Shown here: in pieces, positions 32,661 to 45,879 of the stretch | How positions within the stretch are numbered: position 1 is the stretch's first letter | Layout: each line of letters begins with the position of its first letter | From: Qipengyuania xiapuensis | Lineage (GTDB): Bacteria; Pseudomonadota; Alphaproteobacteria; Sphingomonadales; Sphingomonadaceae | Length of the DNA stretch: 64,000 bases | Direction of reading: 5' to 3' | Assembly: GCF_019711395.1 (NCBI RefSeq) | Contig: NZ_JAIGNL010000001.1 | Location: 62,001 to 126,000 of the forward strand | The notes under the pieces: model-generated | What the model was told of the DNA's origin: nothing | The model's input: the letters and a program-made list of their open reading frames with translations, nothing else | Database searches by the model: none | Position numbers and translations under genes: made by a program

Positions 32661-33602
32661 TTAGATATCGCCGCCCGTAAGGCGCTGGCAGATCAGGTCG
32701 AGCTGGTCGAGCGTGCGATAGCCGATGGTCACCGTGCCGGTGCCCGGTGCGCCTTCGGTCTTGATCTTGACCGGAAGGCCGAGAAATTCCTCGAGATGGC
32801 CCTGCACTGCCGCGATATCGGCGTCGGTGGTGCTGTCCGCGACTGGCTTTGTCGTTCCGGCACTCGCCTTCTTGGGCTTGTCGCCGCGCGCCAGCTTTTC
32901 CACTTCGCGGACCGAGAGATTGTCGTTGGCGGCACGGCGGGCAATTTCGCTCGCTTCCTCGTGGCCGATCAGCGCGCGGGCATGGCCCATGCTGAGTTTT
33001 CCGTCGGCAACCAGGGCAAGCACATCCTCGGGCAGCGCGAGAAGGCGCTGGAAGTTCGCGACATGGCTGCGCGACTTGTCGACCAGCTTGGCGATTTCCG
33101 CCTGGGTCATGCCCTCGTCGTCCGCAAGTTTCTGATAAGCCTTGGCTTCTTCGACAGGATTGAGGTCTTCACGCTGCAGGTTCTCGATCAGTGCCAGCGC
33201 CATCACTTCGCGCTGGTCGAGCTCGCGCACGATTGCAGGGATCGTGTGGAGGCGCGCGCGCTGGGCGGCGCGCCAGCGGCGTTCACCGGCGACGAGGCGA
33301 TAACGGCCCTTTTCCGCCGGAGTGACGATAACAGGCTGGATAACGCCGCGCTGCGCGATCGAATCGGCCAGCTGGTCGAGCGCTTCCTCGTCGAAATGCG
33401 TACGCGGCTGTCCGGGAAGCGGCGAAATGTCCGCTACCGGGATGTCTGCAAGGCCGCTTGCCGGCGTTGCGGAGCCGGTTTCGCTGGCACCGGCGTCTTT
33501 CGCGCCCTCTTCGCGAACCAGCGGCTCTTCGCGCTGGATTTCGCCCATCAGCGCGCCGAGGCCGCGGCCGAGTTTCTTCTTGCGGTCGATGGCGGTGCTC
33601 AT
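32661..33602 (-). CDS. parB: chromosome partitioning protein ParB
   Basis: A 313-residue CTP-dependent DNA-sliding clamp. It has the basic head KKKLGRGLGALMGE, box I/II of the CTPase domain (PLPGQPRTHFDEEALDQLADSI; GERRWRAAQRARL), the helix-turn-helix around TQAEIAKLVDKSRSHVANFQRLL, and a C-terminal dimerisation region (residues about 255-313). ATG 33602 overlaps the parA stop as ATGA. Four parS-like sites lie 0.9-4.1 kb upstream in rsmG, mnmG-mnmE and mnmE. It loads at parS and links the origin to ParA and PopZ. Confidence 0.97.
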   Translation of the reverse strand: MSTAIDRKKKLGRGLGALMGEIQREEPLVREEGAKDAGASETGSATPASGLADIPVADISPLPGQPRTHFDEEALDQLADSIAQRGVIQPVIVTPAEKGRYRLVAGERRWRAAQRARLHTIPAIVRELDQREVMALALIENLQREDLNPVEEAKAYQKLADDEGMTQAEIAKLVDKSRSHVANFQRLLALPEDVLALVADGKLSMGHARALIGHEEASEIARRAANDNLSVREVEKLARGDKPKKASAGTTKPVADSTTDADIAAVQGHLEEFLGLPVKIKTEGAPGTGTVTIGYRTLDQLDLICQRLTGGDI

Positions 33603-34387
33603 GCGGCTTTCCTCTTCTCGGGCAGGCGTCCGATCAGCTCGCGCGCCAATCCGATATAGGCGCGGCTGCCGGGGCAATTATGGTCGTAGATCAGGGCGGG
33701 CATGCCGTGGCTCGGCGCTTCCGAGAGGCGGACATTGCGCGGAATGACATTCTCGAAGACGAGGTTGCCGAGACAGTCGCGCACGTCGTCTGCGACCTGG
33801 TCGGTCAGGCGGTTGCGGCGATCGAACATGGTCAGCGCGATGCCGACGATGCCGAGATCGGGATTGAAGCGCTGCTGGATGCGCTCGACCGTCTGGAGCA
33901 ACTGGCTAAGTCCCTCGAGCGCGAAGAATTCGCACTGCAGCGGCACCATCAGCGTATCAGCCGCGCCGAGCGCATTGAGTGTCAGCAGGCCCAGCGAAGG
34001 CGGACAGTCGATGAAAGCAATGTCGTAACCGGCGAAACCGGGCTGCGGCGCATCGAGCGCCTTCTGCAGGCGGTGTGTGCGGTCCTCGACCGAAACCAGT
34101 TCGACTTCGGCGCCCGAGAGATCCTGCGTCGCCGGGACGATGTCCAGGCCGGGGATCTCGGTCGGCTGCGCGGCCTGCGCGAGCGTGGCTTCGCCCAGCA
34201 GCAGGTCGTAGGTCGTGTATTCGCGGGCGGAATTCTCGATGCCGAGGCCGGTCGAGGCATTGCCCTGCGGGTCCATGTCGATCAGCAGCGTTTTCCAGCC
34301 GGACGCCGCCATGGCCGTGGCGATGTTAATCGCGGTGGTCGTCTTGCCCACCCCGCCCTTCTGGTTTGCGATCGCGATTGTGATCAT
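33599..34387 (-). CDS. parA: chromosome partitioning ATPase ParA (Soj)
   Basis: A 262-residue deviant-Walker ATPase: KGGVGKTTTAINIA at residues 10-23, IDMDPQGNASTGLG, DIAFIDCPPSLGLL and MFDRRNRLTDQV. Without the N-terminal extension of plasmid ParA, it is of the chromosomal Soj type. ATP-bound dimers cover the nucleoid and draw ParB-parS to the pole. ATG 34387 is ten bases after rsmG, making mnmG-rsmG-parA-parB one operon, as in Caulobacter. Confidence 0.97.
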   Translation of the reverse strand: MITIAIANQKGGVGKTTTAINIATAMAASGWKTLLIDMDPQGNASTGLGIENSAREYTTYDLLLGEATLAQAAQPTEIPGLDIVPATQDLSGAEVELVSVEDRTHRLQKALDAPQPGFAGYDIAFIDCPPSLGLLTLNALGAADTLMVPLQCEFFALEGLSQLLQTVERIQQRFNPDLGIVGIALTMFDRRNRLTDQVADDVRDCLGNLVFENVIPRNVRLSEAPSHGMPALIYDHNCPGSRAYIGLARELIGRLPEKRKAA

Positions 34388-34397
34388 TTTCCCGTCC

Positions 34398-35030
34398 CTA
34401 TTTTGCCGCCCCAATTCGACCTCGTCCGACCACGATTCCGGCCTCTTCGTCGGTCAGCGATTGTTCCACGTGGAACAATTTGCGCTTGGCTTTCGGCAGT
34501 TCGCTTACTTCTTGCGCCGCCGATCGCCCTTTGGGCAACACCCAATATGTGCCCGCTGTGGAGAAGCGTGAGGATAAACTGAGGAGTTTAGGAAGTGGCG
34601 CGAAGGCCCGGGCCGAGATTACTGCGGCTTTGCGGCTTTCGACGAGTTCGAGCCGTTTACCTTCGATTTCGCATTTTTCGAGGGCAAGCTTCTCCCTCAT
34701 CGCCTCAAGCCAGTCGACGCGGCGGCGGCGCGATTCGACGAGGACGGTCGGCTGCTCCGGTCGGAGGATGGCAAGGACGAGGCCGGGAAAGCCCGCTCCG
34801 CTACCGAGGTCGAACCAAGCGCCCTGTGTTCCACGTGGAACATGCGTGAGCAGCTGGGCGGAGTCTGCGAAGTGCCGGATCCACATGGTATCGAGCGATC
34901 CGCGCGAGACGAGGTTCTGGCGTTCGTTCTCTTCGCGCAAGGCCGCGCCCAATGCCTCTAGCTTCTCGATGGCCTCTGCGCCGCCCCATTCGGAAATGAA
35001 TGCGCGTGCCTGCGCTTCGTCGCGGATCAT
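34398..35030 (-). CDS. rsmG: 16S rRNA (guanine527-N7)-methyltransferase RsmG
   Basis: A 210-residue SAM-dependent methyltransferase (GidB). Motifs: [40 protein letters not shown] (SAM binding, about residues 72-88) and [10 protein letters not shown]. Two perfect parS sequences are built into its reading frame, as H-V-P-R-G-T near residue 64 and F-H-V-E-Q near residue 187, so the site constrains codons. Its ATG overlaps the mnmG stop by four bases. Confidence 0.95.
34462..34477. other. parS site 1 (inside rsmG)
   Basis: TGTTCCACGTGGAACA, a perfect 16-base palindrome agreeing with the parS consensus TGTTnCACGTGnAACA. It is read in rsmG as F-H-V-E-Q. It should be a ParB loading site. Confidence 0.9.
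34827..34842. other. parS site 2 (inside rsmG)
   Basis: TGTTCCACGTGGAACA again, identical to site 1, 365 bases away and read in rsmG as H-V-P-R-G-T. Perfect match to parS consensus. Confidence 0.9.
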
Positions 35031-36880
35031 GCTGCGCGCTCCTCTAGCCGGCGCGCATGGACAAGCAGCGCGGCGAGCGCAGCGGGAGTGATGCCCGGCA
35101 CACGTCCCGCGGCGGAGAGCGTCTCTGGCCGCGCCTTGCTGAGGCGCTCGACCATCTCGTTCGAAAGCCCGGGCACATTGGCATAGGGAAAGTCCTGCGG
35201 AAGGCGGAGCTTCTCGCCGGCCTTCAGCTCGCGCAGCTCGGCCTCCTGCCGCGCAAGGTAGGGTTCGTAGATGGCGTCCTCGACCATTTCGACTGTCAGC
35301 GCATCCTGAGCGTCGAGCCCGCCGACAATCCGGGAGAGCTCATCGATCGAGATCTGCCCGCCCCGCAACCAGTCGCGCAGGCGCTGCGAACCGCGGTCGG
35401 CCTTTGCCTTCACACCGCCCTCGATCAGGGCATTGGCATGCACTTCTTCGTCGAGCTGGTTGTCAATGACAGAGCGACGTGCCTCGCGCGAAGCGAACCA
35501 TTCCGCCCGCTCCTCGCCCACCAACCCTGCCTCGATGCCGAGGCCTGTCAGGCGCGTATCGGCATTGGCCGCACGAAGACGCAGCCGGTACTCCGCGCGT
35601 GCCGTCAGCATGCGGTAGGGCTCGCTCACGCCCTGGAGCGTGAGGTCGTCGACCATCACGGCGATATAGGAATTGCTCCGGTCGAGGCCCACGGGATCGC
35701 GGCCAAGCACCTTCGCCGCCGCATTCATGCCGGCGACGAGGCCTTGGGCGGCCGCTTCTTCATAGCCGGTCGTTCCGTTGATCTGCCCAGCACAATAAAG
35801 GCCCGGCATGTCGCGCAGTTCGAGCCCTGGCGTCAGCGCACGCGGGTCGATGTGGTCGTACTCCACGGCATATCCGGGCACCGCCATCTCAACTCTTTCG
35901 AGACCCTTCATGGCGCGAAGCATGTCGAGCTGGACGTCGACGGGCAGCGAAGTGCTGATGCCGTTGGGATAGACGAGATGCGTCGACAGCCCCTCGGGTT
36001 CGAGGAAGATCTGGTGGCCTTCACGGTCACCGAAACGATGGATCTTGTCCTCGATGGACGGGCAGTAGCGCGGCCCCGCAGCGCCGATGGCTCCGGAAAA
36101 AAGTGGCGACCGGTCGAGGTTGGCGCGGATGATATCATGCGCCTCGGCATTCGTGCGTGTGATCGCGCAGAAGACCTGCGGGTTCACCCGGCACTTCGAC
36201 AGCGAGGACATGGTCCAGCTTTCGCCATCGGAAGGCTGCTCCTCGAGCGAGGCCCAGTCGATCGTGCGTCCGTCGAGGCGGGGTGGAGTACCCGTCTTCA
36301 GTCGCGCCATCGGCAGGTCGGCCTCGCGCAGCTGCGCCGCAAGAACGCGCGCGGCATCCTCGCCGATGCGCCCGCCCTCGAATCGCTCCTCGCCGCGGAA
36401 CAGCGTTCCACCGAGGAACGTGCCGGTGCACAGGATCACCGCGGGCGCCTCGATCGCTGTTTCGTCGGCCAGGTTCAGCCCGCAGACCGCCGGGCCGTCG
36501 AAGCGCAGCGAAGCGGCCTCCCCTTCTACGAGCGTGAGGTTGTCCTGCCGCGCAACCAGGCCCTGCACCGCCTTGTGGAAGAGCGCACGGTCAGCCTGCA
36601 CGCGCGGGCCCCAGACAGCACTTCCCTTCGAGCGGTTCAGCATGCGGTAGTGGATCGCTGCGGCATCGGCTGCGCGTCCGATCACTCCGTCGAGCGCATC
36701 GACCTCGCGTACGAGGTGGCCCTTGCCCAATCCGCCGATTGCCGGATTGCAGCTCATCGCGCCGATCTTGGACAGGTCGAAGCTTACGAGCGCGGTGTTC
36801 GCGCCCATGCGTGCGGCCGCACATGCCGCCTCGACGCCGGCATGACCGCCGCCGACCACGATGATGTCGAAACTCTGCAT
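35027..36880 (-). CDS. mnmG: tRNA uridine-5-carboxymethylaminomethyl(34) synthesis enzyme MnmG
   Basis: The 617-residue FAD enzyme (GidA) that, with MnmE, installs cmnm5 on U34 of certain tRNAs. It starts with [20 protein letters not shown] (FAD Rossmann), has [21 protein letters not shown] with a key cysteine, and MGRY-type C-terminal helical domain for MnmE and tRNA. Full length. It begins the mnmG-rsmG-parA-parB operon; the 81-base gap to mnmE contains a parS site. Overlaps rsmG by ATGA. Confidence 0.97.
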
Positions 36881-36924
36881 GGGCGGGCCGATACCGCAAT
36901 CATCCGCGCGATCAAAGACAAAGC

Positions 36925-36940
36925 TGTTCCACGTGGAACA
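36925..36940. other. parS site 3 (mnmE-mnmG gap)
   Basis: TGTTCCACGTGGAACA in the short intergenic gap, perfect consensus and the only non-coding member of the set. It is 45 bases upstream of the mnmG start, so ParB binding could affect the mnmG operon promoter and thereby parAB itself. Confidence 0.9.
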
Positions 36941-36961
36941 ATCGCGGCAAATAGCGCGAAA

Positions 36962-38236
36962 TCACTTCCCGATACAGAAACGTCCGAACAATGCGTCGAG
37001 CATGTCTTCGGTCGAATGGCGCCCCAGCAAACGGTCGAGCGCAAGCCGCGCCAGCCGCAACCGCTCGCCGGTCAGGAGCGGGTCGTCATCGGCGGAAATG
37101 TCTTCGATCGCAGCAAGCGCCTCAGCGAGAGCAGAACCCTGCCGCGCATTTAACGCTGCTTCACCCGGTTTCGGAAGTAATGACCTTGCCGCATCCACCA
37201 GCCCACGGGTGAGATCGCCAATGCCGGTACCGGTTACTGCCGAGACCACATATTTCGGCTCCCTCTTGGCACCTTCATCGACATCGCAGCGCGACGCGAT
37301 TTCCCAGGCCCCATCGGGACCTTCTCCCTCCGGTCCGAGCCATAGGACAATGTCCGCTCTCTCGAGTTCGGTCCGCGCGCGGCCGATACCGATTTGTTCG
37401 ATCTGCCCTGCCCCTTCCTCCCGCAGGCCTGCGGTGTCTACCAGCACGAATGGCACCCCGGAGAAAGCGACCGGGCGCTCGATCACGTCGCGTGTGGTTC
37501 CGGCCTCTTCGGAGACGATCGCCGCGCCCTCGTCGAGCAGTGCATTGAACAGCGATGACTTGCCCGAGTTCGGAGGTCCGGCAAGGACTACCCTCACCCC
37601 GTCGCGCAGACGCTCGGCGCGCGGCGCCTCGATCGTCTCTCGCCACTCACCCGCAAGCCGCGAAAGTTCCACGTGAAACATTTCGGGCAGAGCATCGACA
37701 TCATCCTCATCGCCGAAATCGAGAACGGCCTCGACCAGGGCGGAGAGCTGCAGGACGCGCTCTCGCCACTCTTCGACCCGGCGCGACAAACCGCCGCCGG
37801 CGGAGGCCTGTGCGGCCCGGCGCTGCAACTCGGTTTCCGCCGCGAGCAGGTCTCCGAGACCTTCGGCTTCGGCGAGGTCGATCACACCATTGGCGAAGGC
37901 ACGGCGGGTAAACTCGCCCGGCTCCGCGCGGCGCAAGCCCCCGATCGCTCCGAGCGCGTCCTCGATGGCGGCAACGACCGCCCTGCCCCCGTGGCAATGG
38001 AATTCTGCCAGGTCCTCACCCGTCGCGGTGCGCGGGCCGTCGAACCACAGCACGAGAGCGCGGTCGAGCTGGCGCCCTTCGCTATCCCGAAGCGTACGCA
38101 GGCTCGCGCGGCGGGGCTCGGGAAGCTCCCCGGCCAGCGCGCGCACGGCGTCGCCGGCAGCAGGCCCGCTGATCCGCACCACACCGATCGCAGCGGGCGG
38201 CGCTCCGCTCGAGAGGGCGAAGATCGTGTCGGTCAT
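36962..38236 (-). CDS. mnmE: tRNA uridine-5-carboxymethylaminomethyl(34) synthesis GTPase MnmE
   Basis: A 424-residue K+-dependent GTPase (TrmE) that partners MnmG. The formyl-THF-binding head carries IFALSSGAPPAAIGVVRISG; the G domain has AGPPNSGKSSLFNALL, VSEEAGTTRDVIERP and LVDTAGLRE; the protein ends FCIGK with the catalytic-loop cysteine. Slightly shorter than E. coli MnmE. parS site 4 sits at residues around 187-190 (MFHVEL). Minus-strand block next to mnmG. Confidence 0.96.
   Translation of the reverse strand: MTDTIFALSSGAPPAAIGVVRISGPAAGDAVRALAGELPEPRRASLRTLRDSEGRQLDRALVLWFDGPRTATGEDLAEFHCHGGRAVVAAIEDALGAIGGLRRAEPGEFTRRAFANGVIDLAEAEGLGDLLAAETELQRRAAQASAGGGLSRRVEEWRERVLQLSALVEAVLDFGDEDDVDALPEMFHVELSRLAGEWRETIEAPRAERLRDGVRVVLAGPPNSGKSSLFNALLDEGAAIVSEEAGTTRDVIERPVAFSGVPFVLVDTAGLREEGAGQIEQIGIGRARTELERADIVLWLGPEGEGPDGAWEIASRCDVDEGAKREPKYVVSAVTGTGIGDLTRGLVDAARSLLPKPGEAALNARQGSALAEALAAIEDISADDDPLLTGERLRLARLALDRLLGRHSTEDMLDALFGRFCIGK
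37665..37680. other. parS-like site 4 (inside mnmE)
   Basis: AGTTCCACGTGAAACA: the central CACGTG with GTT/AAC flanks is intact, but the first base differs from the 16-base consensus. Read in mnmE as F-H-V-E. Probably a weaker ParB site. Confidence 0.75.
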
Positions 38237-43688: not shown

Positions 43689-44714
43689 TCAGACGGCGTG
43701 GTTGCGTACCGCTGCGATCAGCCGCTCGACATGTTCGATCGGCGTGCGCCGGTCGATCCCGTGACCGAGATTGAAGACATGCGGCCGCCCGGAAAAGGCA
43801 TCAAGGATCGTGCGCACGCGCTTTTCCAGCTCGTCCGAACCGGCAAGCAGCAGCAGCGGATCGAGATTGCCCTGTACCGGCATGCCCTCGGGCAGTTCGC
43901 GCGCGACCCATGCCGGATCGAGCGTTTCATCGACGCCGACGGCCTTCACGCCCGTCTCGCGGGCATAGGCGGGAAGCTTCTCGCCCGAACCCTTCGGAAA
44001 ACCGATCACCGGAGTATCCGGGTGCTTCTCTGCCAGCGCTGCGACGATCCGCGCATTGGGCGCGATCACCCATTTCTCGAATTCGTTGGGAGCAAGGCTG
44101 CCTGCCCAGCTATCGAACAACTGGACCGCTTCTGCGCCTGCCTCGATCTGGCCGGAAAGGTAGGTAATCGTCTCGTCCACGATCGCATCGATGATCACCT
44201 GCAGCGCCGCCGGATCGCGATAGGCGAGTGCGCGGGCCTCGTGCTGGTCACGGCTCCCCTCGCCTGCGACCATGTAGGTCGCGACGGTCCAGGGACTTCC
44301 CGCAAAGCCCAGCATCGTCACGCCTTCGGGAAGTCGCTTCCGACACAGGCGCACCGTCTCGTAGATCGGCTCGTAGCGTGAGGGATCGCGCGTCAGTGCA
44401 TCGAGCGATGAATCGACCAGCTTGGGCGAAAGCTTGGGTCCCTCGCCAGCGAGGAACTCGAGGTGCTGGCCCAGCGCATGCGGCACGATCAGGATATCGG
44501 AAAACAGGATTGCCCCGTCGAAACCGAACCGGTCGATCGGCTGCAAGGTAATCTCGCAAGCCGCCTCGCTATCGTAGGCCATCGCGAGGAAGCCGCCCTT
44601 CTTGGCGCGCAGCTCGCGATATTCGGGAAGGTACCGGCCCGCCTGGCGCATGAGCCAGAGAGGGACCTGGCCGCTAGGCGTGCCGTTCAGCGTGTCGAGA
44701 AGGAGTCCGGGCAT
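43689..44714 (-). CDS. hemE: uroporphyrinogen decarboxylase HemE
   Basis: The 341-residue enzyme removes four carboxyl groups from uroporphyrinogen III. It has WLMRQAGRYLPEYRELR (residues 20-36), ILFSDILIVPHALGQ, GFAGSPWTVATYMVAG and NLGHGIDRRTP. Full length. It is transcribed away from the putative origin, as in Caulobacter, where the origin lies between hemE and the RP001 homologue. The Shine-Dalgarno is weak. Confidence 0.96.
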   Translation of the reverse strand: MPGLLLDTLNGTPSGQVPLWLMRQAGRYLPEYRELRAKKGGFLAMAYDSEAACEITLQPIDRFGFDGAILFSDILIVPHALGQHLEFLAGEGPKLSPKLVDSSLDALTRDPSRYEPIYETVRLCRKRLPEGVTMLGFAGSPWTVATYMVAGEGSRDQHEARALAYRDPAALQVIIDAIVDETITYLSGQIEAGAEAVQLFDSWAGSLAPNEFEKWVIAPNARIVAALAEKHPDTPVIGFPKGSGEKLPAYARETGVKAVGVDETLDPAWVARELPEGMPVQGNLDPLLLLAGSDELEKRVRTILDAFSGRPHVFNLGHGIDRRTPIEHVERLIAAVRNHAV

Positions 44715-45011
44715 TCAGGAGTCCAATAATACCTAGTTATTATAAGGATTGATGGAGTCTGTTGGCCCTGTGGATATCGGGCACAAGCGGCCCCTGCCCG
44801 AATTCTTCGGCGATTGGAAGGCTTCTGGCGGGTTTGCGACTCGTGGTCGCACATGAGTCGAGTCAAACTTGTCCCCACTGTTCCCAGCCTGCGCAAAACT
44901 CCCCCCTTGGTGTGCGGGAATCACCCCCGAAGATGACTCGTAGCGGGGAGGGAATTCATCACCGAACTTGTCGCCAGACCTGTCCCGTGGTTTATCCCGC
45001 CGCTGTCCACA
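44715..45011. other. putative chromosomal replication origin (oriC)
   Basis: Between divergent hemE and ppsR. The left end is an AT-rich stretch with ATAATA (44726-44731) and TATTAT (44738-44743), a likely unwinding element. TGTGGATAT (44769-44777) is one mismatch from the DnaA box TGTGGATAA. Weaker box-like 9-mers are TTGTCCCCA (44869-44877) and CTGTTCCCA (44878-44886). Four more follow at 44968, 44980, 44992 and 45003, one per 11-12 bases in one orientation. The hemE-origin-ppsR gene order is that of Caulobacter Cori. No promoter-like or coding content explains the region. Position is strong by synteny, the exact boundaries are not. Confidence 0.75.
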
Positions 45012-45879
45012 GGCCGAGAGCGAGGCTCCTATCTCCCAACGCATCCATCTCCACCTGCTCTCCGATTCCACCGGCGAGACACTGGAAATGCTGGCAAAAG
45101 CGGCGCTGGCGCAGTTCGACGACGCCGATGTCGTGCGCCATTTCTGGCCCATGGTCAGGAGCAAGCAGCATCTCGACCGGATCGTGCCCGAACTCAAGGC
45201 CAATCCAGGGCTCGTGCTGTTCACGCTGGTCAATCCAGAGGCGCGCGGAAGGCTGGAAGAGGTCTGCGCACAGAACGGCCTGCCTGCTGTGCCTATCCTC
45301 GACCGCGTCACCGAGGCACTGGAAAAGGCGCTCGGCCAGCAGGCGCATGGCCGTCCGGGCAAGCAGCACCAGATGGACAAGGCCTATTTCGAGCGCGTCG
45401 AGGCGATCCAGTTCACGATCGCGCATGACGACGGTGTCGGCTGGGAGAACTGGGAAGAGGCAGATATCCTTCTCGCGGGCGTGTCGCGCAGCTCGAAGAC
45501 GCCGACCAGCATCTATCTCGCCAATCGCGGCTACAAGGTCGCCAACATCCCGCTGGTGGTCGAAAGCCCGCCCCCGCCCAAGCTCTTCGATCTGAAGGGG
45601 CCGATGATCGTCGGCCTGACGACCGCGCCCGAGCGGCTCGTCCAGATTCGCCGCAATCGCCTGCTGACGCTCAACGAGAAATCGCAGACCGACTATGTCG
45701 ACAACGAGCGGGTGAAGAGCGAGGTCGCCTTCGCACGCCGGATGTTCGCCGACAATGGCTGGCCGGTCATCGACGTGACCCGCCGCTCGATCGAGGAAAC
45801 CGCCGCCGCCGTGATCCGCCTGCTTGGCGAACGCGAACAGCGCGAGCAGGGCCTGTTCGAAGGAATGAAGCCGATATGA
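44968..45879 (+). CDS. ppsR: pyruvate, phosphate dikinase/PEP synthase regulatory protein (DUF299)
   Basis: A bifunctional kinase/pyrophosphorylase of about 280-303 residues that phosphorylates and restores PPDK or PEP synthase. Core features are [20 protein letters not shown] at the start of homology and the P-loop [20 protein letters not shown]. Start is problematic: TTG 44968 is the only usual start codon and its first 15 codons are the DnaA-box-like array; homology begins at about codon 25. A non-standard ATC at 45031, with GAGCGAGG upstream, fits homologue starts best. Equivalent to RP001 next to the Caulobacter origin. Overlaps maf by ATGA. Confidence 0.88.

Follow-up and report, generated by a model that had tools for sequence, protein, structure and literature searches.

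The 316-bp intergenic region between hemE and ppsR (positions 44715 to 45030 of the window, by which we mean the whole 64,000-bp stretch analysed, C1:62001-126000) can be assigned with high confidence, on the grounds of sequence comparison, as the putative chromosomal replication origin (oriC) of Qipengyuania type (Erythrobacteraceae) in this 2.71-Mb genome (2,713,266 bases in two contigs). An origin candidate in this conserved neighbourhood had been proposed in the initial annotation, and the proposal is supported by gene order, a footprint of conserved blocks, nearby parS sites, a change in GGGNAGGG polarity and a dif-like site located towards the opposite pole, all of which point to the gap or its near surroundings. 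This kind of origin has already been predicted for the Sphingomonadaceae and very probably works like Cori of Caulobacter.

The region is bounded on the left by the start of hemE (43689..44714, minus strand, gene start at 44714; URO-D, PF01208, E 2.5e-110), beyond which Pfam identifies rho and UPF0093 genes, with parA/parB farther out. On the right lies ppsR (45031..45879, plus strand; Kinase-PPPase, PF03618, E 1.9e-95), for which we propose a start at ATC 45031 and not at TTG 44968, followed on the plus strand by maf, aroE, coaE and a dnaQ-like exonuclease gene (RNase_T, PF00929). The order hemE–gap–ppsR–maf–aroE–coaE–dnaQ was placed correctly from the outset, its dnaQ being the dnaQ-like exonuclease. 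The accompanying statement that the gap holds no gene also stands: the gap contains no convincing gene, the Rfam scan of the gap gave no family above its gathering score, and a simple scan of 44600-45100 gave neither a sigma-70-like promoter nor a terminator.

Matches to ppsR were present in 59 of 60 genus, 113 of 119 family and 66 of 95 class genomes. Comparison of the upstream gap covered the 59 genus genomes with a single locus apiece, 39 of the 111 matching family genomes outside the genus, and 60 of the 65 class matches besides the own genome, one of the 60 being from the same family. For the incomplete genome G053, which has two matches, the more distant locus L138 (72% identity, perhaps a contaminant) was used, the better match being L168. 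A divergent hemE lies beside ppsR in all 59 genus loci and in all 39 family loci from other genera, and the two genes adjoin in 177 of 179 genus and family loci, a count that includes 80 named loci, many of them from the same genomes; in the two misses the sequence ahead of the match is just 313 and 376 bp long. At class level the pairing is found within the fetched 700 bp in 50 of 60 loci; the ten misses include one truncated stretch (L290). The gap is 312-341 bp long across the 59 genus loci, and its position beside hemE and/or COG1806 is the one that characterises hemE–COG1806-linked alphaproteobacterial origins. Four near-complete family genomes of 2.1-2.3 Mb (G083, G084, G136 and G167) gave no ppsR match, so that the origin neighbourhood in those four may differ.

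No perfect DnaA box (TTATNCACA) is found in the gap, which carries one conserved box with a single mismatch and four degenerate ones, fixed in spacing within the genus. The former, predicted DnaA box I (44769..44777, minus strand; TGTGGATAT, reading ATATCCACA on the minus strand), is the near-perfect box already recorded in the initial annotation; its TGTGGA core is kept in 59/59 genus and 39/39 other-genus gaps, and most of it lies, together with a GANTC site, in the 21-bp block GGAGTCTGTTGGCCCTGTGGA (44754..44774), each position of which is at least 90% conserved in the 59 loci. The same annotation mentions weaker box-like 9-mers; the four weaker blocks distinguished here, all read on the plus strand, are: box-like II (44869..44877; TTGTCCCCA, TTATCC... 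in many relatives), present in 50/59 genus and 20/39 other-genus gaps; box-like III (44968..44976; TTGTCGCCA), inside the conserved block CCGAACTTGTCG (44962-44973) and present in 51/59 and 9/39; box-like IV (44991..44999; TTTATCCCG), inside the conserved block CCGTGGTTTAT (44985-44995) and present in 56/59 and 33/39; and predicted DnaA box V (45003..45011; CTGTCCACA, which is TTCTCCACA in 41 relatives), present in 55/59 and 27/39. Runs of at least six positions conserved at 90% or more in the 59 genus loci fall at 44754-44774, 44793-44798, 44855-44864, 44962-44973, 44985-44995 and 45006-45011.

The distances between the boxes are nearly constant in the genus: 99-101 bp from I to II in 46/50 gaps, 97-99 bp from II to III in 43/45, 23 bp from III to IV in all 49 gaps holding both, and 10-13 bp from IV to V in 52/52. 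In most genus loci the steps from box I (44769) to II (44869) and on to III (44968) are about 100 and 98 bp. The poor retention of boxes II and III beyond the genus (20/39 and 9/39) was counted against the origin reading. DnaA boxes alone prove nothing here, since the 946.7 kb of own sequence contain 95 boxes with at most one mismatch and, under the same scoring scheme, all 20 clusters listed (some overlapping) score 6-8 as against 5 for the gap. A dense cluster of DnaA-box-like and GANTC sites is also found upstream of an nrdA-like ribonucleotide reductase gene (L009:16640-17190, C1 ~316.7 kb); because of that position it was dropped as a rival origin.

Between hemE and box I, and overlapping the hemE leader, lies an AT-rich stretch (44720..44750) which we propose as the unwinding element. 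The inverted repeat reported at 44726-44743 is real, ATAATA (44726-44731) being answered by TATTAT (44738-44743), with 6-bp arms of modest significance (own shuffle p 0.02; p<0.05 in 19/59 genus gaps). The AT-richness is matched by 500 of 945,500 26-mers of the sampled genome, and left of box I the AT fraction averages 0.78, with a minimum of 0.67, over the 56 of 59 genus gaps in which the neighbouring block could be located. AT content is the robust feature of the stretch; being better kept than the repeat, it led us to reject the repeat as a conserved element, and raised AT content is again a character of hemE–COG1806-linked origins. The arrangement of the basal unwinding system, at least three NAN DnaA-trios with a spacer of at most 16 nt, is absent here. 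A matching box is present in 45 genus gaps; in 42 of them a trio run begins within 30 nt of it (at 24 nt in our own), and the DnaA-trio model at its published spacing was rejected, since only 3 of the 45 fit it.

On the scale of the chromosome, parB and parA (32661..34393, minus strand; Pfam ParB_N/HTH_ParB and AAA_31) are accompanied by four predicted parS sites (34462, 34827, 36925 and 37665, together 34462..37680; two mismatches each, chance 0.06). Their distance from the gap, to its left, is 7.0-10.3 kb, in agreement with the 7-10 kb first given for parABS, a spacing which we take to resemble that at Caulobacter Cori.

The polarity of GGGNAGGG, an FtsK-orienting motif, was followed over 190 sites in own samples that begin in contig 2 and reach 1.51 Mb on contig 1, within a chromosome-scale sample of 1,246,700 of the 2,713,266 genome bases. 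Left of the gap (from contig 2) 4/54 sites are on the plus strand; from the gap (106,945) to 563 kb the motif is mixed (42/71 plus), and from 563 kb, a point that adjoins dnaA (558.5 kb), to 1.51 Mb it is nearly pure (63/65 plus). In the samples covering contig 1 from 1.56 Mb to its end, 20 sites are minus and none is plus. A model with two change points places the first at 106,792-106,945, in the gap, while a model with one prefers 118.2-122.6 kb, the gap being 0.57, dnaA 7.3 and the GC-skew minimum 9.4 log units worse; a permutation test on the first 48 sites gave 0.0005. Polarity changes, then, in the gap or within ~15 kb of it and stays mixed for 450 kb rightward, for which we can offer only the guess of a rearrangement or of weak polarity near the origin. 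Two of four closed relatives, those for which a list (plus-strand sites only) was obtained, display only a modest change in motif density at ppsR, from 28 in 331 kb before the gene to 72 in 572 kb after it (G092), and from 27 in 436 kb to 23 in 204 kb (G150).

GC skew behaves differently from what the initial annotation had expected, namely a turn at about 44.8 kb of the window. It is nearly flat around the gap, with a local minimum at contig position 157 kb, some 50 kb away, and a test based on it would mislead by about that distance. A single dif-like site was detected at C1:1540452, with no match in the control. It falls close to the opposite pole; were the two contigs joined as one circle, the replichores would measure ~1.43 and ~1.28 Mb.

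From these features we infer DnaA binding, melting and initiation at the gap. DnaA would occupy box I, which flanks the AT-rich stretch, along with the weaker boxes II-V distributed over ~240 bp, and on oligomerising would melt the AT-rich DNA adjoining hemE. Helicase loading would take place at this site, with forks departing both ways, after which ParAB would move the copied origins apart via the nearby parS sites.

Could the gap instead merely house the control elements that two divergent genes share, under DnaA and CcrM regulation, with the origin elsewhere within some 20-50 kb? The slight preference of the one-change polarity model for 118-122 kb, the skew minimum at 157 kb and a box density that is unexceptional beside the stronger box and GANTC cluster upstream of the nrdA-like gene would all suit such an arrangement. 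We nevertheless consider it improbable, as conserved positions extend across the entire gap at fixed spacing, the hemE–ppsR pairing is class-wide (50/60), the simple scan found no sigma-70-like promoter, and parS sites lie beside the gap. Origins often adjoin dnaA, and an origin at that gene (C1:558.5 kb) would coincide with the second GGGNAGGG change, from mixed to nearly pure plus, at 563 kb. The stretch to its left should then be minus-rich, but 42/71 sites between the gap and 563 kb are plus, and a single change there fits worse by the margin given above; dnaA is, moreover, described as not kept near ori in Sphingomonadales (PMC8116508), and we regard this location as highly improbable.

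Considering how this candidate compares with known systems, Caulobacter crescentus Cori (hemE / CC0001, the latter being COG1806) is likewise situated between hemE and ppsR and likewise has an AT stretch, DnaA boxes and a nearby parABS. Unlike Cori, the genus gaps lack CtrA sites (TTAA-N7-TTAA with at most one mismatch; none in 58/59 genus and 34/39 other-genus gaps), the best match in our own gap having two mismatches, and lack the IHF consensus WATCAN5WTR (none in our own gap or in 56/59 genus gaps); a gap of ~319 bp holds a dense, conserved cluster of GANTC. As the CtrA feature was looked for and is absent, the origin should not be called CtrA-silenced. E. coli oriC also has dense methylation sites within the origin, acted upon through Dam/SeqA, the likeness being in their density and the difference in the site and enzyme, GATC/Dam there and GANTC/CcrM here. 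An oriC near hemE is predicted in DoriC for most Sphingomonadaceae, and a move of the DoriC entry of Sphingopyxis alaskensis to the hemE region has been argued for (PMC4741004). The predicted oriC of Sphingopyxis granuli TFA shares the neighbourhood, predicted DnaA boxes and a DUE; the GANTC array, the spacing rule and the lack of CtrA and IHF sites do not figure in the excerpted Sphingopyxis granuli TFA/DoriC account (PMC4741004). Our literature search found no paper on a Qipengyuania origin.

The GANTC (CcrM) cluster spans 44755..44939, with sites at 44755, 44838, 44855, 44860, 44918 and 44935, retained respectively in 54, 59, 57, 53, 43 and 44 of the 59 loci; a seventh, at 44719, is retained in 14. 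Among the best-kept sites are those of 44838-44864, where a tandem GAGTCGAGTC follows GCGACTCG. On average a gap holds 6.5 sites in the genus and, for the 39 family genomes outside it, 4.9, as against 1.2 expected from base composition in each case; the 50 class-level gaps hold from 0 to 8. The gap is the second-densest 316-bp place for GANTC in the 946.7 kb of own sequence, the densest being a repeat-like stretch elsewhere in the genome. A gene at C1:888003 encodes a protein with a RAMA domain, matched by only Caulobacter among 14 control genomes; it scores 601 bits (E 4.5e-181) against the CcrM model NF050803, below the curated cut-off of 830, and is therefore termed CcrM-like.

These observations suggest an origin with a methylation-rich gap and without CtrA sites, in which the cluster, we infer, would act in timing via CcrM methylation and so replace the CtrA sites of Caulobacter. 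GANTC in origins is not new as such, since several motifs are described in the origins of Caulobacter and close species (PMC3973325), and repABC replicons are GANTC-rich (PMC6090056). It is possible, if somewhat less probable than its opposite, that the cluster serves transcription instead, through GcrA/CcrM control of hemE or of a small RNA: GcrA prefers methylated GANTC promoters (PMC8116508), the ncRNA CcnA is located in the Caulobacter origin (PMC8959179), and initiation in Caulobacter does not need CcrM, although CcrM overexpression there disturbs chromosome content (PMC6090056). Against a role in transcription only is the layout of six sites over 185 bp, each kept in 43-59 of 59 loci and interleaved with the box-like blocks, and against the small RNA the lack of any Rfam family above gathering score in the gap.

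The right-hand boundary of the gap raises a question of its own. In 25 of 28 loci from other genera ppsR begins ATG-x-CGN, one codon past the position of 45031, the other three having GTG, CTG and TTG. In 44 of the 59 genus loci (L043-L073, L110, L112-L119 and L121-L124) that next codon is TCC, GCC, CCC, ACC, GCA or TCA, and the codon preceding it is ATC (21), ATT (17) or ATA (6), never ATG; the better match of G053, L168, has ATT too. We consider it likely, from such comparisons, that ppsR in these 44 loci has a near-cognate start at this ATH codon. On a 360-bp tree two changes (two gains, or a gain plus a loss) account for the ATH state, against 14 for the four-state codon. At ATH the anti-Shine-Dalgarno energy is -5.0, as against -2.6 for background positions; shuffling the ATH windows still gives -4.1, so that much of the signal is composition. 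GAGG, GGAG or AGGA precedes ATH in 25/44. For the other 15 genus loci the energy is -5.6 one codon further on, two of them having GTG one codon earlier. RNA folding around the ppsR start was unremarkable (z 0.02), and there was no paper on the ppsR start codon among the literature matches listed.

The competing explanation, which we think unlikely without dismissing it, is that ppsR starts upstream (at TTG 44968, or at GTG or ATG in other loci) and that ATH encodes an isoleucine of a longer protein. All 44 loci do have some in-frame ATG, GTG or TTG upstream of ATH, and the absence of ATG would be natural at an isoleucine codon. However, the conserved upstream block stands in three different frames relative to ATH (22, 12 and 9 of 43 loci, one locus having no exact block) and would yield unrelated peptides, hence there is no shared N-terminal extension of ppsR. 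The Shine-Dalgarno energy at the nearest upstream in-frame ATG, GTG or TTG is background-like (-2.2), weaker than that at ATH or in its shuffled windows. Third-base use also departs from that of ten of the eleven other conserved isoleucine columns: among the 12 all-isoleucine columns of 31 full-length sequences, the ATH column is 61% non-ATC and ten others 0-29%, and the remaining one (all ATA, at the end of ppsR) overlaps the start of maf. TTG 44968, which a gene finder could choose, sits inside a conserved origin block.

Near-cognate starts have precedents, infC with its AUU start being one. The infC of the same genome (contig 2, L230:1441) reads, by eye, GGAG, 8 nt and ATA-GCC-CGT; an in-frame ATG stands 8 codons downstream, and the gene perhaps has an ATA start. 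ppsR, with ATH in 44/59 genus loci, would share the conserved non-ATG/GTG/TTG start of IF3-sensitive near-cognate genes, as judged from sequence. Control of such a start by IF3 may be proposed by analogy with Streptomyces sigR, which has a GTC start and is IF3-repressed (PMC5472188). As in sigR and infC, the near-cognate start would be kept in a clade; in ppsR, unlike these, ATC, ATT and ATA vary inside one genus.

Taken as a whole, the proposal for Qipengyuania, which we hold to be evenly balanced, is that ppsR, encoding the pyruvate dikinase regulatory protein, would have kept an AUC, AUU or AUA start in most of the genus, never AUG, with translation that may be low or tied to IF3, and that CtrA/IHF control would have given way, in the adjoining origin, to a conserved CcrM (GANTC) array. 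If the near-cognate start is true, ppsR would carry a misannotated N-terminus in much of the genus, because each of the three reading frames happens to contain a TTG, GTG or ATG supplied by conserved elements of the origin. For the origin, the comparison provides a fine-grained map in a group where predictors based on DnaA boxes and GC skew are weak.
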